64,000 bases of DNA, from assembly GCF_029626035.1 (NCBI RefSeq), contig NZ_JARUBE010000003.1:6386001-6450000 (forward strand), given 5' to 3'. The notes beneath the pieces were generated by a model. The model made no database searches. It saw only the letters and a list, made by a program, of their open reading frames with translations, and had not been told where the DNA came from. The DNA comes from Micromonospora sp. WMMD980 (GTDB taxonomy: Bacteria > Actinomycetota > Actinomycetes > Mycobacteriales > Micromonosporaceae). The translations under genes and the position numbers were made by a program. Positions 5,739-12,894 of the stretch are shown here, in pieces (the first letter of the stretch is position 1; every line of letters begins with the position of its first letter).

Positions 5739-8303
5739 TCAGAACGCGCAGGCGATGACCAGCTCTCCGGTGCGGTCGGGAAGCAGGTCGAGCTTCGCGA
5801 TCCGCCCCGCCGCTCGCAGGTCGTCGGCCACGGTGGTGAGCTGGTCGAGCACCGCCGCCGGCCCGAGCGCCTCGGCCAGCGGCACGTCCGCCTTCATCGA
5901 CAGCTTCCGTTCCGACTTGGCCCGGCGCACCTGCCCCAACGCGTCGGCGGCCAGCCGCAGCAGCTCCGGGTCACCGGGCACGGCCATCGCGCGGCCCACC
6001 TCGTAGGTGGTCGGCCACGTGGAGCGGTGCACCGAGCCGTACCGCCACCAGGACCAGACCTCCTCGGTGACGAACGGCAGCACCGGGGCGAAGAGCCGCA
6101 ACTGCACCGACAGCGCGGTCGCCAGCGCCGCCCGGGCCGAGTCGGCCGCCGGGCCGGAGCCGTAGGCGCGCTCCTTCACCAGCTCGATGTAGTCGTCGCA
6201 GAACCGCCAGAAGAACGCCTCCGTGGCCATCAGGGCGGCCGTGTGGTCGTACCCGTCGAGGGCGGTGGTCGCGGTGGCGACCACGCCGGACAGTTCGGCG
6301 AGCATCGCGGTGTCCAACGGTTGCGTCACCGGCGCCCGCAGCGCGTCGGCGGCGCCCAGCCCGAGCGCGAACCGGGACGCGTTGAGCACCTTCGTGGCCA
6401 GCCGGCGACCCACCTTGACCTGGGCCGGGTCGAAGGCCAGATCCATGCCCGGCTTGCCGTTGGCGGCCCAGTAGCGCACCGCGTCGGAGCCGTGCTGCTC
6501 CAGCAGCCCCATCGGCGTGACCACGTTCCCCTTGGACTTGGACATCTTCTTGCGGTCCGGGTCGAGGATCCAGCCGGAGAGCACCGCCGTGCGCCAGGGC
6601 AGCACGCCGTGCTCCAGATGGGCCCGGACCACGGTGGCGAACAGCCAGGTGCGGATGATGTCGTGCCCCTGCGGGCGCAGGTCCATCGGGAAGACCCGGC
6701 GGTGCAGGTCCGGATCGGTCTCCCAGCCGCCGACGATCTGCGGGGTCAGCGACGAGGTGGCCCAGGTGTCCAGCACGTCCTGCTCCCCGGTGAAACCGCC
6801 GGGGACGTCGCGCTGCGCCTCCTGGTAGCCGGGCGGCGGCTCGCTGCTCGGGTCGATCGGCAACATCGCCTCGTCCGGTGTGAGAGGGTGGGTCCAGTCC
6901 GGTTCGCCAGTGTCGTCGAGCCGGTACCACACCGGCACCGGCACGCCGAAGAACCGCTGCCGGCTGACCAGCCAGTCACCGGTGAGACCGCCCACCCAGT
7001 GCTCGTAGCGGTGCCGCATGTGCTCCGGCACCCAGCGCAGCTCGCGCCCCCGGGCCAGCAACTCCTCGCGCAGGTCCGCGTCCCGGCCACCGTTGCGCAG
7101 ATACCACTGCCGGGTCGAGACGATCTCCAACGGCCGGTCGCCGCGCTCGTAGAACTTCACCGGGTGGGTGATCGGGCGCGGCTCGCCGACCAGGTCGCCC
7201 GCGTCGGCCAGCAACTCCACCAGGGTCCGCCGGGCGCCGTTGACCGTCTGCCCGGCCAGCGCCGCGTAGGGCCCGGCCGGCACCCCGGCCGGCGGCTCCG
7301 GCAGCAGCCGACCGTCCCGGCCGATCACCACCCGGGTGTCCAGCCGCAGCTCCCGCCACCAGGTCACGTCCGCCAGGTCACCGAATGTGCAGACCATCGC
7401 GATGCCCGTGCCCTTGGCCGGGTCCGCCAGCGGGTGCGCGCGCACCGGCACCTGGACCCCGAAGACCGGGGTACGCGCGGACGCGCCGACCAGGTCGCCG
7501 TAGCGCTCGTCGTCCGGGTGACAGACCAGCGCCACGCAGGCCGGCAGCAGCTCCGGCCGGGTGGTGTCGATCAGCACCTCGCGCCCGCCCGGCCCGGTGA
7601 ACCGCAGCCGGTGGTAGGCGCCCGGCCGCTCCCGGTCCTCCAGCTCCGCCTGGGCCACCGCGGTGCCGAAGCCCACGTCCCAGAGCGTCGGCGCCTCCGC
7701 CTGGTAGGCCTCGCCCCGGGCCAGGTTGCGCAGGAACGCGCGCTGGCTGGCCGCCCGGGCCGCCCGCCCGATCGTGGTGTAGGTCAGCGACCAGTCCACC
7801 GACAGGCCGAGCCGGCGCCACAGCGCCTCGAAGACCTTCTCGTCCTCCACGGTCAGCGTCTCGCACAGCTCGATGAAGTTGCGCCGGGAGATCGCGGTCG
7901 GGTTCTTCCGCGCGTCGTCGCCGACCGGGGCGGCCGGCGGCCGCCAGTCCCTGCCGTACGGCAGCGCCGGGTCGGGGCGCACCCCGTAGACGTTCTGCAC
8001 CCGGCGTTCGGTGGGTAGCCCGTTGTCGTCCCAGCCCATCGGGTAGAACACCGTCCGCCCGCGCATCCGCTGGAACCGGGCCACCGTGTCGGTGTGCGTG
8101 TAGGAGAAGACGTGCCCCATGTGCAGCTCACCCGACACGGTCGGCGGCGGGGTGTCGATGGAGTAGACGTCCGACCGCTCCTTCGACCGGTCGAACGCGT
8201 ACGTGCCGTCGGACTGCCAGCGGCGGGACCAGGTCTCTTCGAGTCCGTCCAGGCTCGGACGCTCGGGGACCCCGGCGCGGGCCGTCCTCGTCGTGTCGGT
8301 CAT
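5739..8303 (-). CDS. valS: Valyl-tRNA synthetase
   Basis: 854 residues from ATG 8303. Attaches valine to tRNA-Val in the cytoplasm. Class I signatures: HMGH (HIGH) at 61-64 and KMSKS at about 586-590; an editing (CP1) domain lies between about 200 and 350. The anticodon domain is present but the C-terminal coiled-coil arm of many ValRS proteins is missing, as in the shorter actinobacterial type. No ribosome site precedes ATG 8303. A TACCAT -10-like box ends 6 nt upstream, and the frame is open upstream into the small Cys-rich ORF that starts at 8591. So synthesis could be leaderless from 8303 or as a 950-residue fusion. Confidence 0.96.
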   Translation of the reverse strand: MTDTTRTARAGVPERPSLDGLEETWSRRWQSDGTYAFDRSKERSDVYSIDTPPPTVSGELHMGHVFSYTHTDTVARFQRMRGRTVFYPMGWDDNGLPTERRVQNVYGVRPDPALPYGRDWRPPAAPVGDDARKNPTAISRRNFIELCETLTVEDEKVFEALWRRLGLSVDWSLTYTTIGRAARAASQRAFLRNLARGEAYQAEAPTLWDVGFGTAVAQAELEDRERPGAYHRLRFTGPGGREVLIDTTRPELLPACVALVCHPDDERYGDLVGASARTPVFGVQVPVRAHPLADPAKGTGIAMVCTFGDLADVTWWRELRLDTRVVIGRDGRLLPEPPAGVPAGPYAALAGQTVNGARRTLVELLADAGDLVGEPRPITHPVKFYERGDRPLEIVSTRQWYLRNGGRDADLREELLARGRELRWVPEHMRHRYEHWVGGLTGDWLVSRQRFFGVPVPVWYRLDDTGEPDWTHPLTPDEAMLPIDPSSEPPPGYQEAQRDVPGGFTGEQDVLDTWATSSLTPQIVGGWETDPDLHRRVFPMDLRPQGHDIIRTWLFATVVRAHLEHGVLPWRTAVLSGWILDPDRKKMSKSKGNVVTPMGLLEQHGSDAVRYWAANGKPGMDLAFDPAQVKVGRRLATKVLNASRFALGLGAADALRAPVTQPLDTAMLAELSGVVATATTALDGYDHTAALMATEAFFWRFCDDYIELVKERAYGSGPAADSARAALATALSVQLRLFAPVLPFVTEEVWSWWRYGSVHRSTWPTTYEVGRAMAVPGDPELLRLAADALGQVRRAKSERKLSMKADVPLAEALGPAAVLDQLTTVADDLRAAGRIAKLDLLPDRTGELVIACAF

Positions 8304-8591
8304 CTGCCGATGGTAGGCAGGTGCACCGGACCGCTCCACGGCTTTCGCGGGCCAGCCGACGAACCGGGCGAACAGCGCTTGCGGTGACGGTGCCTCGTTC
8401 GGGTTGAGGCGGTGCAGGTCGGTCGCCGCTTCGTAGAGCTGCCCGCACAGGTAGACCGACATGCCCACCCGATCATCCGCGTACTCGGCGACCAGGGCCA
8501 GGCGGGCGACCGCGCACGGCCATGGCTGGGCGCAACGCTTGCAGAGCCAGATCGGGCGTAACGGCAGGTGCGGGCGGCCGGCGCCGCTCAT
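8304..8591 (-). CDS. Small Cys-rich (CxxC...C) protein, open into valS with no stop codon
   Basis: Starts ATG 8591 in an ATGA overlap with the upstream 97-aa gene and reads 96 codons directly into the valS ATG. The N-terminus has WLCKRCAQPWPC (Cys17, Cys20, Cys26), followed by a helical ARFVGW-ending domain at about residue 80. From memory, actinomycete genomes carry similar 75-85-aa proteins next to XRE/DUF397 genes, often labelled flavin reductase without support. Such homologues should stop near residue 80; here the last 16 residues look like former valS leader. Coordinates give the part before the valS ATG. Function unknown; possibly zinc-binding. Confidence 0.65.
8310..8315 (-). promoter_or_regulatory. 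Candidate leaderless -10 box for valS (TACCAT)
   Basis: On the minus strand TACCAT lies 6 nt before ATG 8303, fitting TANNNT leaderless promoters. It lies inside the open frame of the small upstream ORF. A partial -35 (TGGAGC) sits about 18 bp further upstream. Confidence 0.45.
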
Positions 8592-8881
8592 GCCCGCACC
8601 GACGCCTTGCCGCGGGGCGGGCGACGGCTGGAAGGCACTGCCCGAGTGGGAGCAGTGAGCCAGCGCAGCCCAGCGGGCTGTACGAACAGTTCCCGCTTGG
8701 CGACCGCCTCTCCCGCGACGTTCAGCGCGTAAGCCTCGATCCAGGTCCAGCCGTCGTAGCAGTGCCGGTCGGTGATCTCTCGAATGACGCGGACGATGAT
8801 CGGACGGACGAACTGGACGCTTGCGGAGCGGGCCAGGTGCAAGACGTCTCCGCCCTTGATCAAGCCAGTGGTCGCCGGCAT
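8588..8881 (-). CDS. Conserved hypothetical protein of XRE/DUF397 neighbourhoods
   Basis: 97 residues from ATG 8881, chosen because AAGGGGAAGG directly precedes it; an upstream in-frame start at 8983 would read through a hairpin. The body contains LIKGGDVLHL, VRPIIVRVIREI and a TYDGW-like CYDGWTWIEAY segment, which suggest a small beta-rich domain. The C-terminus is basic and disordered. I recall similar small genes beside DUF397 genes but know no function. It is translationally coupled to the Cys-rich ORF downstream and divergent from the XRE regulator at 9077. Confidence 0.6.
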   Translation of the reverse strand: MPATTGLIKGGDVLHLARSASVQFVRPIIVRVIREITDRHCYDGWTWIEAYALNVAGEAVAKRELFVQPAGLRWLTAPTRAVPSSRRPPRGKASVRA

Positions 8882-8904
8882 CCTTCCCCTTCCGTTGCTG
8901 GGAA

Positions 8905-8940
8905 GGGGCCGTCCCTGGCTGCTCGGCCACGGACGGCCCC
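8905..8940. promoter_or_regulatory. 10-bp inverted repeat in divergent control region
   Basis: GGGGCCGTCC (8905-8914) and GGACGGCCCC (8931-8940) are perfect complements with a 16-nt loop. It lies 24 bp upstream of the 97-aa gene, in the 195-bp divergent region facing the XRE gene. It could be a leader hairpin or operator. Confidence 0.45.
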
Positions 8941-9076
8941 GGGCAGTGCTCCCGCCGGAAATCGGGCCTCCCCCGGGTAGCACCGCTCATCTGCCACCCT
9001 GCCGAGAGCGACGGGATCAGTACACAGCGTGCATGTATGGTGCCGAGATATCCGGGGCGTCCATAGGGGAGGCGGG

Positions 9077-9844
9077 ATGAACCACGTACTCCAAGCGGCG
9101 ATGGCCGCGGCCGGTGAGACAGCCGAGAGCCTTGCAGCTCAGACCGGCGTAGACCCGAAGACGGCGGCGCGTTGGATCTCCCCGGGACGTGTGCCGCAAC
9201 CACGCCGACGCGCGCAGCTGGCCGCACTCCTTGGCCGGGACGTGGGGGACCTATGGCCCGATGTCCTGAAGCGACGTGAGCCCCAGTGGCTGCGCGAGTG
9301 GGTCGACTGGGAACGGGAGGCCGTAGCCCTCCGCTGGTTCGAGCACTGCTGGATACCTGGCCTGCTTCAGACCGAGTCGTACGCGCGGGCGACGCTTGCC
9401 GGTGAGGCGCTGACCTCGGCGGAGGTGGACGAGCTGGTTGCCTCACGCATCGAGCGGCAAGCCATCCTGCGCCGGGAGTGCCCACCCCTGTACGTCGCCG
9501 TCATCTTCGAAGGGGTGCTGTACCAGTCGGCGTACGGCGATCGTGAGCTGATGCGCGAGCAGGTCGAGCACCTTGCCCGCTGCGCAGCTCTCCCCATGGT
9601 GCAGGTGCACATCGTGCCGAGGGGGGTTGGCATGTATCCAGGGCTCGGCGGGGGCTTCATCATCGCCGAGCTACCCAGCGGTGAGCATGTCGCGCACGTC
9701 GACAGTCAGGGGCCGGCGCAGATCGTAAATGAGGCTGCGCCCGTTGCTACGCTCAGTCGCAGGTGGGAGCGCATCAGGGGTGAAGCCCTCTCCCGCAACC
9801 AGTCTCTAGACCTGATCAGAGAAGCGGCAGGATCATGGACATGA
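9077..9844 (+). CDS. XRE-family regulator with DUF5753 domain
   Basis: 255 residues from ATG 9077 (strong GGGGAGGCGGG upstream; the frame is open 16 codons earlier). Helix-turn-helix at about residues 8-55 (ESLAAQTGVDPKTAARW), then a DUF5753 domain of about 180 residues starting near EPQWLREWVDWEREA with the typical IPGLLQTESYARA motif. Family members are DNA-binding regulators paired with DUF397 proteins; some are described as Scr1-type antitoxin-like or developmental regulators (WhiJ-like). Overlaps the DUF397 start by 10 nt. It likely controls its own divergent promoter region. Confidence 0.88.
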   Translation: MNHVLQAAMAAAGETAESLAAQTGVDPKTAARWISPGRVPQPRRRAQLAALLGRDVGDLWPDVLKRREPQWLREWVDWEREAVALRWFEHCWIPGLLQTESYARATLAGEALTSAEVDELVASRIERQAILRRECPPLYVAVIFEGVLYQSAYGDRELMREQVEHLARCAALPMVQVHIVPRGVGMYPGLGGGFIIAELPSGEHVAHVDSQGPAQIVNEAAPVATLSRRWERIRGEALSRNQSLDLIREAAGSWT

Positions 9845-10035
9845 CCGGTGCGCAGTGGCGCAAGAGCACGAAGAGCGGCAACAACGGTGGCTCATGTGTC
9901 GAGATCGCCGACAACCTTCCCGGCGTCGTCCTGGTCAGGGACACAAAGGACCGCGACGGCGGAACGCTGACCTTCGGGCCGGCATCCTGGCGGGGCTTCG
10001 TCAACCTGGCCAAGAAGATCGGCCCCTCGGGCTGA
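9835..10035 (+). CDS. DUF397 domain protein
   Basis: 66 residues; ATG 9835 or 9841. The WRKSTKSGNNGGSCVEIAD opening and VLVRDTKDRDGGTLTFGPASW core are diagnostic of DUF397. These small proteins are encoded directly after XRE-DUF5753 genes and are thought to modulate or be neutralised by them, as in WhiJ/BldB-like or toxin-antitoxin-like pairs. No toxic activity is shown by sequence. A strong terminator follows 12 bp after the stop. Confidence 0.9.
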   Translation: MDMTGAQWRKSTKSGNNGGSCVEIADNLPGVVLVRDTKDRDGGTLTFGPASWRGFVNLAKKIGPSG

Positions 10036-10047
10036 CCAAGGACCAAG

Positions 10048-10083
10048 AGCAGCCCCGGCACCCATCAGGATGCCGGGGCTGCT
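10048..10083 (+). terminator. Strong intrinsic-type hairpin after DUF397
   Basis: AGCAGCCCCGGCA (10048-10060) pairs perfectly with TGCCGGGGCTGCT (10071-10083) around a 10-nt loop. It closes the XRE-DUF397 transcript. Confidence 0.8.
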
Positions 10084-10276
10084 TCGTGTCGGGGTACGTG
10101 AGAAATGGTTATCACCAGCCGCCCTGTTGCATCGAACGTACGAACAGCCGTCCGATATGGTGTCTCCGGCGCACGACATTAAACCCGAACTACTCCCTGA
10201 GAAGCAGGCCGGCGCGCCCGTCCTGACGCTAGCGGGGGACGGACCCCCGACCTCTGAATCTCAGGGAGCGTGGCGA

Positions 10277-10441
10277 GTGACGACGCGCCGAAAGGGACCT
10301 TCGGGCCCCATGAGGTACCGACCGACCAGCACCAATCGGTGGCGGGAGGTCACGGAGTGGGCGGCACTGATACTCAAAGTGCTTGCCTACGCCGCAGGGC
10401 TCGCGGTGACGGTAGCCAGCCGGGGATGCGGGCCCAACTGA
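10277..10441 (+). CDS. Possible small membrane protein
   Basis: 54 residues from GTG 10277 with GGGAG 9 nt upstream. Basic N-terminus (TTRRKGPSG...), then one hydrophobic segment at about residues 28-47 (WAALILKVLAYAAGLAVTV) and a short CGPN tail. Not recognised. Codon use is less GC-extreme than in neighbours. Could be chance; position after the XRE/DUF397 pair and the plausible ribosome site support it weakly. Confidence 0.35.
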   Translation: MTTRRKGPSGPMRYRPTSTNRWREVTEWAALILKVLAYAAGLAVTVASRGCGPN

Positions 10442-10537
10442 CCAACCGTCAGCCAACCCCACATCCCCACCCGAGGAAGGTAAGGCCCCTCGCCCGGCTC
10501 CCATACCTGTGGCGGGGGGTACTTCCTGTGCTGTGCT

Positions 10538-10572
10538 GTCGTGCACGGTCTCGTTCGGTCGTGCACGGTCTC
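10538..10572. repeat. Tandem direct repeat containing GTGCAC palindromes
   Basis: GTCGTGCACGGTCTC occurs at 10538-10552 and again at 10558-10572, a 20-bp period (about two helical turns). Each copy contains the palindrome GTGCAC. The arrangement resembles a double operator or short iteron pair. Confidence 0.6.
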
Positions 10573-10857
10573 ACTCTGTCTCAGACGATACACAACACGG
10601 AAGAATGCCAAGCGGCGATGTAGCGCCATTTTTCTGCGCCGTGTAGCGAGTATGCGAGCTTGCTCGTCTAGTTAGCGACGCCTTCTCGCCGCCTATCGTC
10701 GTGTCCGGAAGTCTCCGCAGAGCTTGATAGGGCCGTGACCTCCGATATTTCCGGGGTCGGGACATGCAAACTGCGGAGCTTCACTCCCGGTGAGGTGGCC
10801 AACTGCATCTCAGGACGGTAGGGGCGGGAACCGTGGCCCGAATCTTGAGATGCGTAA

Positions 10858-10906
10858 AGATCTTGGTATGAAAGTGCCCCTATGGGGGCCATTTCGTACC
10901 AAGATC
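10858..10906. repeat. Dispersed palindromic repeat, family A copy 1
   Basis: Left arm GATCTTGGTATGAAA and right arm TTTCGTACCAAGATC close a near-perfect stem of about 22 bp with a CCCC-TAT-GGGG tip. Shares its arms with the copy at 22106-22157. It lies 50 bp beyond the stop of the leftward ABC exporter gene and could terminate that transcript. Confidence 0.7.
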
Positions 10907-10933
10907 GCCTCGCGCCTCGCGCCTCGCGCCTCG
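10906..10933. repeat. 7-bp tandem repeat, four copies
   Basis: CGCCTCG repeated four times without interruption, directly after palindrome family A copy 1. A simple sequence tract that may vary between strains. Confidence 0.75.
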
Positions 10934-10956
10934 CGGACGATCGGCCTGAGACGCGT

Positions 10957-12894
10957 TCAGAGCAGCGAGTCGCGCCACTGGCGGTGCAGCGCGGCGTAGC
11001 GGCCCCCGGCGGCGGCCAGGTCGGCCGGCGAGCCGTCCTCGACGATCCCGCCCGCGTCCAGCACCAGCACCCGGTCGGCGATCTCCACAGTGGAGAGCCG
11101 GTGCGCGATCACCAGCGCGGTGCGGTCACGCAGCACGTTCCGCAGCGCCCGCTGCACCAGGCGTTCGGTCGGCACGTCGAGCGACGACGTGGCCTCGTCG
11201 AGGATCAGCACCCGGGGGTCGGCCAGGAACGCCCGGGCGAACGCGACGAGCTGCCGCTGCCCGGCGGAGAGCCGGCCGCCACGCCGGTGCACGTCGGTGG
11301 CGTACCCATCGGGCAGCGCGGCGATGAACTCGTGCGCGCCGATGGCCCGCGCGGCGGCGACCACCGCGGCGTCGTCGGCGTCCGGGCGGCCGAACCTGAT
11401 GTTCTCCGCCACGGACCCGCTGAACAGGTGGGTCTCCTGGGTGACCAGCACCACCGCCCGGCGCAGCTCGGCGTCGGCCAGGTCGCGCAGGTCCACACCG
11501 TCGAGGCGGACCGCGCCGGCGTCCGGGTCGTGGAACCGGGCCAGTAGCTTGGCCACTGTGGACTTGCCCGCACCGGTCGGCCCGATCAGCGCGACCGTCT
11601 GCCCCGCCGGCACGGTCAGCTCCAGGCCGGACAGGATCGGCGTCTCCGGACGGTAACCGAAGGAGACCGAGCGGAAGTCCACCGCGCCGCGAGGCGGCCC
11701 GGCGGGCAGCGGCGCCGGCCGGGCCGGCTCGGCCACCGCCGGCCGCTCGTCGAGCACCCCGGCCAGCTTCTCCAGCGCCGCGGTCGCCGACTGGAGCGAG
11801 TTGTAGAACTGGCTCAACTCCTCCATCGGCTCGAAGAACCGCCGCAGGTAGAGCAGGAACGCGGCGAGCACGCCCACCTCGGTGTGGCCGCCCAGCACCC
11901 GCCAGCCCCCGTACGCGAGCACCGTCGCGGCGGTGAGGTTGCCGATCAGCCGGATGCCGGGGGAGTAGACCGCGATCAGCCGGAACGCGCGCAGGCTGGC
12001 CCGCCGGTAGTCGTCGTTCACCGCGTCGAAGATGCGCTGGTTGCGGGTCTCGCGGCGGAACGCCTGCACCGCCCGGATCCCGCGCAGCGACTCGACGAAG
12101 TGCACGATGACCAGCGCCACCGCCTCCCGGGTGCGCCGGTAGGCCCCGGCCGACGCCCGGGCGAACCAGCGGGACAGCCAGAACAGGAACGGGAACGCGA
12201 ACAGGGTGACCGCGGCCAGCGGCAGGTCCAGCCAGAGCAGGATGCCCGCCACCGACAGCACGGACAGCACGGCCATGACCAGCCGGTCGATCCCGCCGTC
12301 GACCAGCTCGCCGATCGACTCCAGGTCGCTGGTCAGCCGGGACACCATCCGACCGGACGTGTAACGCTCGTGGAAGCCGACGTCGAGCCGCAGGAAGTGC
12401 GCGTAGACCCGGCGGCGCAGGTCGAGCAGGACGGCCTGGCCGATCCGGGCGGCGAGGGCGAGGAACGCGCGCCGGGCCGCGTACTCGACGGCGGTGGCCA
12501 CCACGAAGGCGGCGGCCACCGCGACCAGCGGGCCCGCGTCGCCGGCCCGCAGCGGACCGATGCCCCGGTCGATGCCGAGCATGACCAGGTACGGACCGGC
12601 CATCGCGGCCGCGTTCTGGGCCAGCAGCAGCGTCACGGCCAGCCCGAGCGGGCGCCGGTGCGGGCGGAGCAGTTGCCGCAGCAGGAGCCGGCTACGGGCG
12701 CGGAGCCGGGTCACCGCCGCGGGTGACGAGTCCTCGGCGCGGCTTCGGTCGGCGTCCGGGTCGGTGGCCCGCCCTCGCCACCGGGACAGGTCGCCGTCGG
12801 GCTCGGGCTCGTCGGTGCCGGCGTGGCGCGGGGCGGCGGCACGTCCGTTGGACGCGCCACCCCGCGGCAGGACGCGTGGGGCGCGCCAGGTCAC
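10957..12894 (-). CDS. ABC exporter half-transporter, catalytic NBD (heterodimer partner)
   Basis: 645 residues; GTG start in a GTGA overlap with the upstream partner gene. A charged N-terminal extension of about 65 residues precedes six membrane helices (about 80-370) and an NBD. Walker A GPTGAGKST is near 437, Q-loop VTQETHLFSG, signature LSAGQRQ and canonical Walker B with catalytic Glu (LILDEATSSLD). Probably forms a heterodimeric multidrug or lipid exporter with the 604-aa protein, whose Walker B lacks the Glu. Substrate unknown. Confidence 0.92.
   Translation of the reverse strand: MTWRAPRVLPRGGASNGRAAAPRHAGTDEPEPDGDLSRWRGRATDPDADRSRAEDSSPAAVTRLRARSRLLLRQLLRPHRRPLGLAVTLLLAQNAAAMAGPYLVMLGIDRGIGPLRAGDAGPLVAVAAAFVVATAVEYAARRAFLALAARIGQAVLLDLRRRVYAHFLRLDVGFHERYTSGRMVSRLTSDLESIGELVDGGIDRLVMAVLSVLSVAGILLWLDLPLAAVTLFAFPFLFWLSRWFARASAGAYRRTREAVALVIVHFVESLRGIRAVQAFRRETRNQRIFDAVNDDYRRASLRAFRLIAVYSPGIRLIGNLTAATVLAYGGWRVLGGHTEVGVLAAFLLYLRRFFEPMEELSQFYNSLQSATAALEKLAGVLDERPAVAEPARPAPLPAGPPRGAVDFRSVSFGYRPETPILSGLELTVPAGQTVALIGPTGAGKSTVAKLLARFHDPDAGAVRLDGVDLRDLADAELRRAVVLVTQETHLFSGSVAENIRFGRPDADDAAVVAAARAIGAHEFIAALPDGYATDVHRRGGRLSAGQRQLVAFARAFLADPRVLILDEATSSLDVPTERLVQRALRNVLRDRTALVIAHRLSTVEIADRVLVLDAGGIVEDGSPADLAAAGGRYAALHRQWRDSLL

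Follow-up and report, generated by a model that had tools for sequence, protein, structure and literature searches.

Introduction

In Actinobacteria, predicted leaderless genes are characterised by a TANNNT motif about 12 bp before the start codon (PMC3160421). Two further studies give leaderless genes as a quarter of the genes of M. tuberculosis (PMC3898074) and, for Actinoplanes, leaderless transcripts as 14% of genes, with TAnnnT standing before 98% of the mapped starts (PMC7682106). A second class of described systems that is relevant here comprises the XRE-DUF397 gene pairs, which were predicted to be toxin–antitoxin systems (PMC2701414); in a study of S. coelicolor, however, none of 14 such pairs showed this behaviour, and the pairs are described as acting as pleiotropic regulators (PMC10364602). 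In the listed literature on a second valyl-tRNA synthetase (ValRS), on nested or leaderless valS genes and on the ValRS of Micromonospora, we recognised nothing on the alternate valS gene (alt_valS).

The locus described here lies within a 64,000-nucleotide stretch of DNA from Micromonospora sp. WMMD980, which was analysed as a whole and is referred to as the window. Its valS gene shares with the leaderless actinobacterial genes (PMC3160421, PMC3898074, PMC7682106) a −10 box at −12 and the absence of a Shine–Dalgarno (SD)-like motif, but differs from them in being additionally in frame with a foreign upstream small ORF. That ORF belongs to an island which has in common with the XRE-DUF397 pairs (PMC2701414, PMC10364602) a regulator gene followed by a DUF397 gene. 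Unlike those pairs, the island has a DUF5753 regulator that is only weakly matched by helix–turn–helix (HTH) models and carries two small genes on the opposite strand.

Results

The features of the locus are listed below in window coordinates; G numbers denote genomes and L numbers denote loci.

5739..8303, minus strand: alt_valS, alternate archaeal-type valine--tRNA ligase, 854 aa, start ATG 8303 (profile matches)
8304..8348, minus strand: native valS promoter region, which in frame supplies the last codons of the 96-codon small ORF (also conserved upstream of valS in related genomes)
8310..8315, minus strand: TACCAT −10 box, −12 to −7 of ATG 8303 (TANNNT kept in relatives)
8347..8358, no strand assigned: stretch containing the joint between island and valS (about six bases match either side)
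8352..8591, minus strand: island part of the small ORF, codons 1–80, without the usual tail and stop (G065 copy)
8588..8881, minus strand: 97-aa ORF of the island, coupled by ATGA to the small ORF (conserved in the G065 island copy)
8907..8938, minus strand: hairpin predicted upstream of the 97-aa ORF (from folding and from comparison with the G065 copy)
9029..9844, plus strand: DUF5753 regulator gene of the island, start provisional (PF19054, 1.4e-46)
9835..10035, plus strand: DUF397 gene of the island (PF04149, 2.6e-20)
8352..10956, no strand assigned: island together with the rest of the gap, as far as the ABC-transporter stop (off-site G065 copy)
10957..12894, minus strand: ABC-transporter gene bordering the gap

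The original prediction rested on an uninterrupted frame of 950 residues from a small ORF through valS, and translation confirms it: on the minus strand of window 5739–8591, ATG 8591 and the valS ATG at 8303 are in the same frame with no stop between them, and the product comprises 950 residues and a single terminal stop. The small ORF occupies 96 codons of this frame, and its ATG overlaps the stop of the preceding ORF in an ATGA (8591–8588), as had been proposed for its coupling to that gene. The frame also stays open further upstream of 8591, to a GTG at 9485 (1248 aa in the ORF listing), and the complete stop-to-stop frame of valS in the window is 1253 codons long. With a GC content of 73%, random stretches of the window are free of stops in 83% of cases at a length of 16 codons and in 44% of cases at 96 codons. 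Among the 117 alt_valS genes that scored over the cut-off in the matches listed for 121 genomes of the genus (own genome included, drawn from a larger group), the surrounding stop-to-stop frame reaches at least 950 codons for 25 and at least 1253 codons for 13, the window being included in both counts. Of the 57 distinct upstream sequences, which include that of the window, 37 show no in-frame stop in the 20 codons next to the start of valS. The openness upstream of valS goes barely beyond chance. Since the frame runs on to 9485 and such long frames are found around so many other alt_valS genes, the open frame is weak evidence for a fusion.

The 57 upstream sequences were obtained by collapsing five identical ones in an alignment of 62 loci: that of the window, those of the 30 relatives with the best scores, and 31 fetched stretches, of which four come from genomes already represented by these relatives. 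The TACCAT box that had been proposed is indeed present, at 8315–8310, and is followed by 6 nt and then by ATG 8303; TANNNT occurs at exactly −12 in all 57 sequences, the window included. No SD-like motif precedes ATG 8303, in agreement with the earlier view that valS has no ribosome site of its own, and such motifs are found in three of the 57 sequences, in which the start codon is ATG (54) or GTG (three). Besides the −10 box, the native promoter region contains a second box at about −41 to −33 of valS (GAAAGCCGTGG in the window; GAAAGCCGTGGAG at 8346–8334), which is not TTGACA-like. A generic sigma-70 scan of 8200–11000, which demands the TTGACA-like box that valS lacks, returned no promoter-like site. 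Codon −14, located in the second box, is TAA in 18 of the 57 sequences and AAA, as in the window, in 18, so that this stop is often missing in relatives with other upstream DNA too. Of the two alternatives originally offered, a nested leaderless valS is the one that is well supported, and judging from the invariant position of the −10 box valS is most likely to be such a gene.

A DNA query spanning the joint (window 9080–8204, minus strand) splits between two places in relatives. Its positions 1–729 match island copies away from valS, the best of the matches listed being that of G065 (87%), while from positions 733–735 on it matches valS upstream regions, for instance those of G140 (94%), G073 (93%) and G026 (90%). 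Across the joint, the own genome alone matches among the matches listed for 160 genus genomes (own included), and the same result was obtained with a second, shorter joint query of 41 genomes. The valS site of G065 is empty (L068), with 59 bp from the last ABC-transporter codon to the valS ATG, and window 8352–10681 occurs off-site in that genome (L069) with 86% identity. The island part of the small ORF displays 90% protein identity to this off-site copy, in which the ORF runs 17 codons past a conserved G-W (residue 80) and then stops. An own stop is likewise found 3–28 codons after the codon matching residue 80 in all 29 of the other small-ORF copies examined, which are the best-scoring others for which loci were made (the stop table has 37 rows: the window, the 29 copies and seven larger loci that repeat seven of those). 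The small ORF of the window instead consists of 80 island codons followed by 16 codons of mainly valS promoter DNA, and its lack of an own stop is the unusual feature here.

Matches on the island side end at 8352, and those on the valS side reach 8346–8350 in most of the relatives fetched and 8358 in G018, G144 and G068; since about six bases fit both sides, the joint is placeable only within 8347–8358. A target-site duplication is not definable, as the gap sequence differs between relatives. The claim that an inserted island had removed the stop of the small gene needs to be divided. A DUF5753/DUF397 island does lie upstream of valS, and at the joint the small gene is left without its original tail and stop, but the insertion is only part of the reason for the open frame, given that codon −14 varies between TAA and AAA among the upstream sequences. 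A point loss or frameshift of the small-gene stop was considered and rejected, the island tail being absent and native valS DNA following in its place. An RNA element at the joint was also ruled out, the Rfam search of 8200–11000 being empty at E ≤ 0.1.

The gap between the ABC-transporter gene and valS is approximately 2.65 kb in the window by coordinates, and spans 47–2238 bp where measurable (44 of 61 other loci, from 57 genomes). Its contents differ among the eleven relatives inspected, the aligned flanks being 10 bp to 1757 bp apart. In G018 and G103 the gap contains relics of small genes of the same kind, accompanied in G018 by a DUF397 gene. The gap is possibly an insertion hot spot. 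In the window, a palindrome of about 50 bp (10857–10906) recurs at 11 further places of the own genome in versions that are 76–91% identical, and has the appearance of a small dispersed repeat; part of it is also present in the valS gap of G144 (L074). Within the island, the HTH matches of the regulator are below the Pfam cut-offs (HTH_23, 0.024; HTH_28, 0.042), and the 97-aa ORF has no Pfam or NCBIfam match. The hairpin at 8907–8938, for which Rfam gave no match, shows a compensatory stem change in the G065 copy, from C-G to T-A.

The product of the small ORF had been labelled a zinc ribbon. Searches of Pfam and NCBIfam gave no match for it, and its predicted model, built from nine sequences, is mostly helical (mean pLDDT of 84.7) and has no PDB match at E ≤ 0.001; the zinc ribbon was consequently rejected as unproven, no recognisable family or fold having been found in these three resources. 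Its four Cys residues are not invariant: in an alignment of nine proteins, one, whose match begins at residue 16, keeps only the last of them. Comparison of the small ORF with the G065 copy yielded a dN of 0.049 and a dS of 0.26, a ratio well under 1 that points to past constraint, and decay is not obvious. Members of the small-ORF family were matched in all 160 genus genomes, with 4–30 per genome and 24 in the own genome among the matches listed.

The protein encoded by valS exceeds the curated cut-offs of both the alt_ValS model (NF000540.1; 1431 bits, cut-off 900) and the archaeal-type model (NF009687; 1094 bits, cut-off 738), and with 565 bits falls under the cut-off of 612 of the standard model TIGR00422. 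Compared with known alt_ValS proteins it is in itself ordinary, and the own genome also possesses an intact canonical ValRS of 872 aa at G000:C3:127118-129664 (NF004349; 1171 bits, cut-off 704). Among the matches listed, alt_ValS is over the cut-off in 117 of 121 genus genomes (own included), the four exceptions being G059, G061, G078 and G084, the last of which has a 646-bit match. The canonical enzyme is over the cut-off in all 20 of the genus genomes checked, these four among them. At class level, alt_ValS is over the cut-off in 42 of 79 genomes among the matches listed, own included, the 79 being a sample drawn from a larger group. The proposal that an essential gene is tied to the island lacks support: the gene in question encodes an alternate ValRS in a genome that also has an intact canonical one, and it has kept its own promoter-like box; the designation 'essential' is unsupported for alt_valS.

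Discussion

The locus as a whole is very probably explained by a nested leaderless valS that lies beside a joined island, with read-through into it unused. An island of the XRE/DUF397 type, of which the genus Micromonospora has many, sits in the variable gap between the ABC-transporter gene and alt_valS. Its last small gene passes directly after the conserved codon 80 into native valS promoter DNA, and has thereby lost its tail and stop. The promoter DNA, open by chance in the frame of the small gene, provides a stop-free run into valS. Transcription of valS would proceed from its own conserved −10 box and start at ATG 8303, and the resulting mRNA, presumably leaderless, would be translated to the normal 854-residue ValRS. 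Since valS in all likelihood retains a leaderless transcript of its own, the island is expected to have little direct effect on the normal enzyme. The apparent fusion of the small ORF to valS is most likely to be an accident of GC-rich DNA.

Transcription of the island operon through the joint could nevertheless give rise to a 950-residue read-through product, since no site resembling a terminator was detected between valS and the genes of the island, and the ATGA coupling would carry ribosomes into the frame. No sign of use of such a product was seen, and we infer that it has no role. That switching on the island operon would lead to a detectable 950-residue small-protein–ValRS besides the normal enzyme, a chimera derived from the one-step loss of a stop where an insertion is joined, appears unlikely.

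A real fusion would go considerably further, with an island operon extending through valS and a 950-residue product that has a role, for example in island control of tRNA charging. The uninterrupted frame, the ATGA coupling, the missing terminator-like site and a small ORF that is intact over 80 codons with a dN/dS well under 1 all speak in its favour. Such a fusion is nonetheless very improbable: the joint occurs in one genome alone, both among the matches listed and in the 41-genome query, the linker of 16 codons consists of valS promoter DNA that is conserved in island-free relatives, and valS genes are commonly preceded by long open frames, with contents that vary between relatives. The zinc-ribbon–ValRS fusion, one of the two alternatives originally offered, is accordingly unsupported, its joint not being conserved beyond the own genome among the matches listed. 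The occurrence of the joint in a single genome would also fit a sequencing or assembly error that hides the stop of the small gene, as had been envisaged, but this is scarcely credible, because the island tail is wholly missing and native valS DNA comes next, which a single-base error cannot explain, and because the joint lies inside a 6.78-Mb contig.

A different history could underlie the same arrangement, with valS functioning as in the preferred explanation: the island, or an older one, may have been present here first with a complete small gene, whose tail and stop were subsequently removed by a deletion or by recombination between short stretches of shared bases. The small-gene relics of G018 and G103, which have their own stops and lie just upstream of the valS promoter, are consistent with such a course of events, as are the approximately six bases of the joint that fit both sides. 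These relics, however, come from other subfamilies (46–60% protein identity) and a direct intermediate was not seen among them; this history is possible, if somewhat short of probable.

Conclusions

The preferred reading, a nested leaderless valS beside a joined island, illustrates that at 73% GC little can be read into a long open frame that crosses a gene border, and that a promoter ending at the start codon keeps a gene independent of upstream arrivals. It also corrects the idea of an essential synthetase under the control of an island, the gene concerned being that of a second ValRS. The retention of an archaeal-type ValRS together with the canonical enzyme so often in the genus is the more interesting question.
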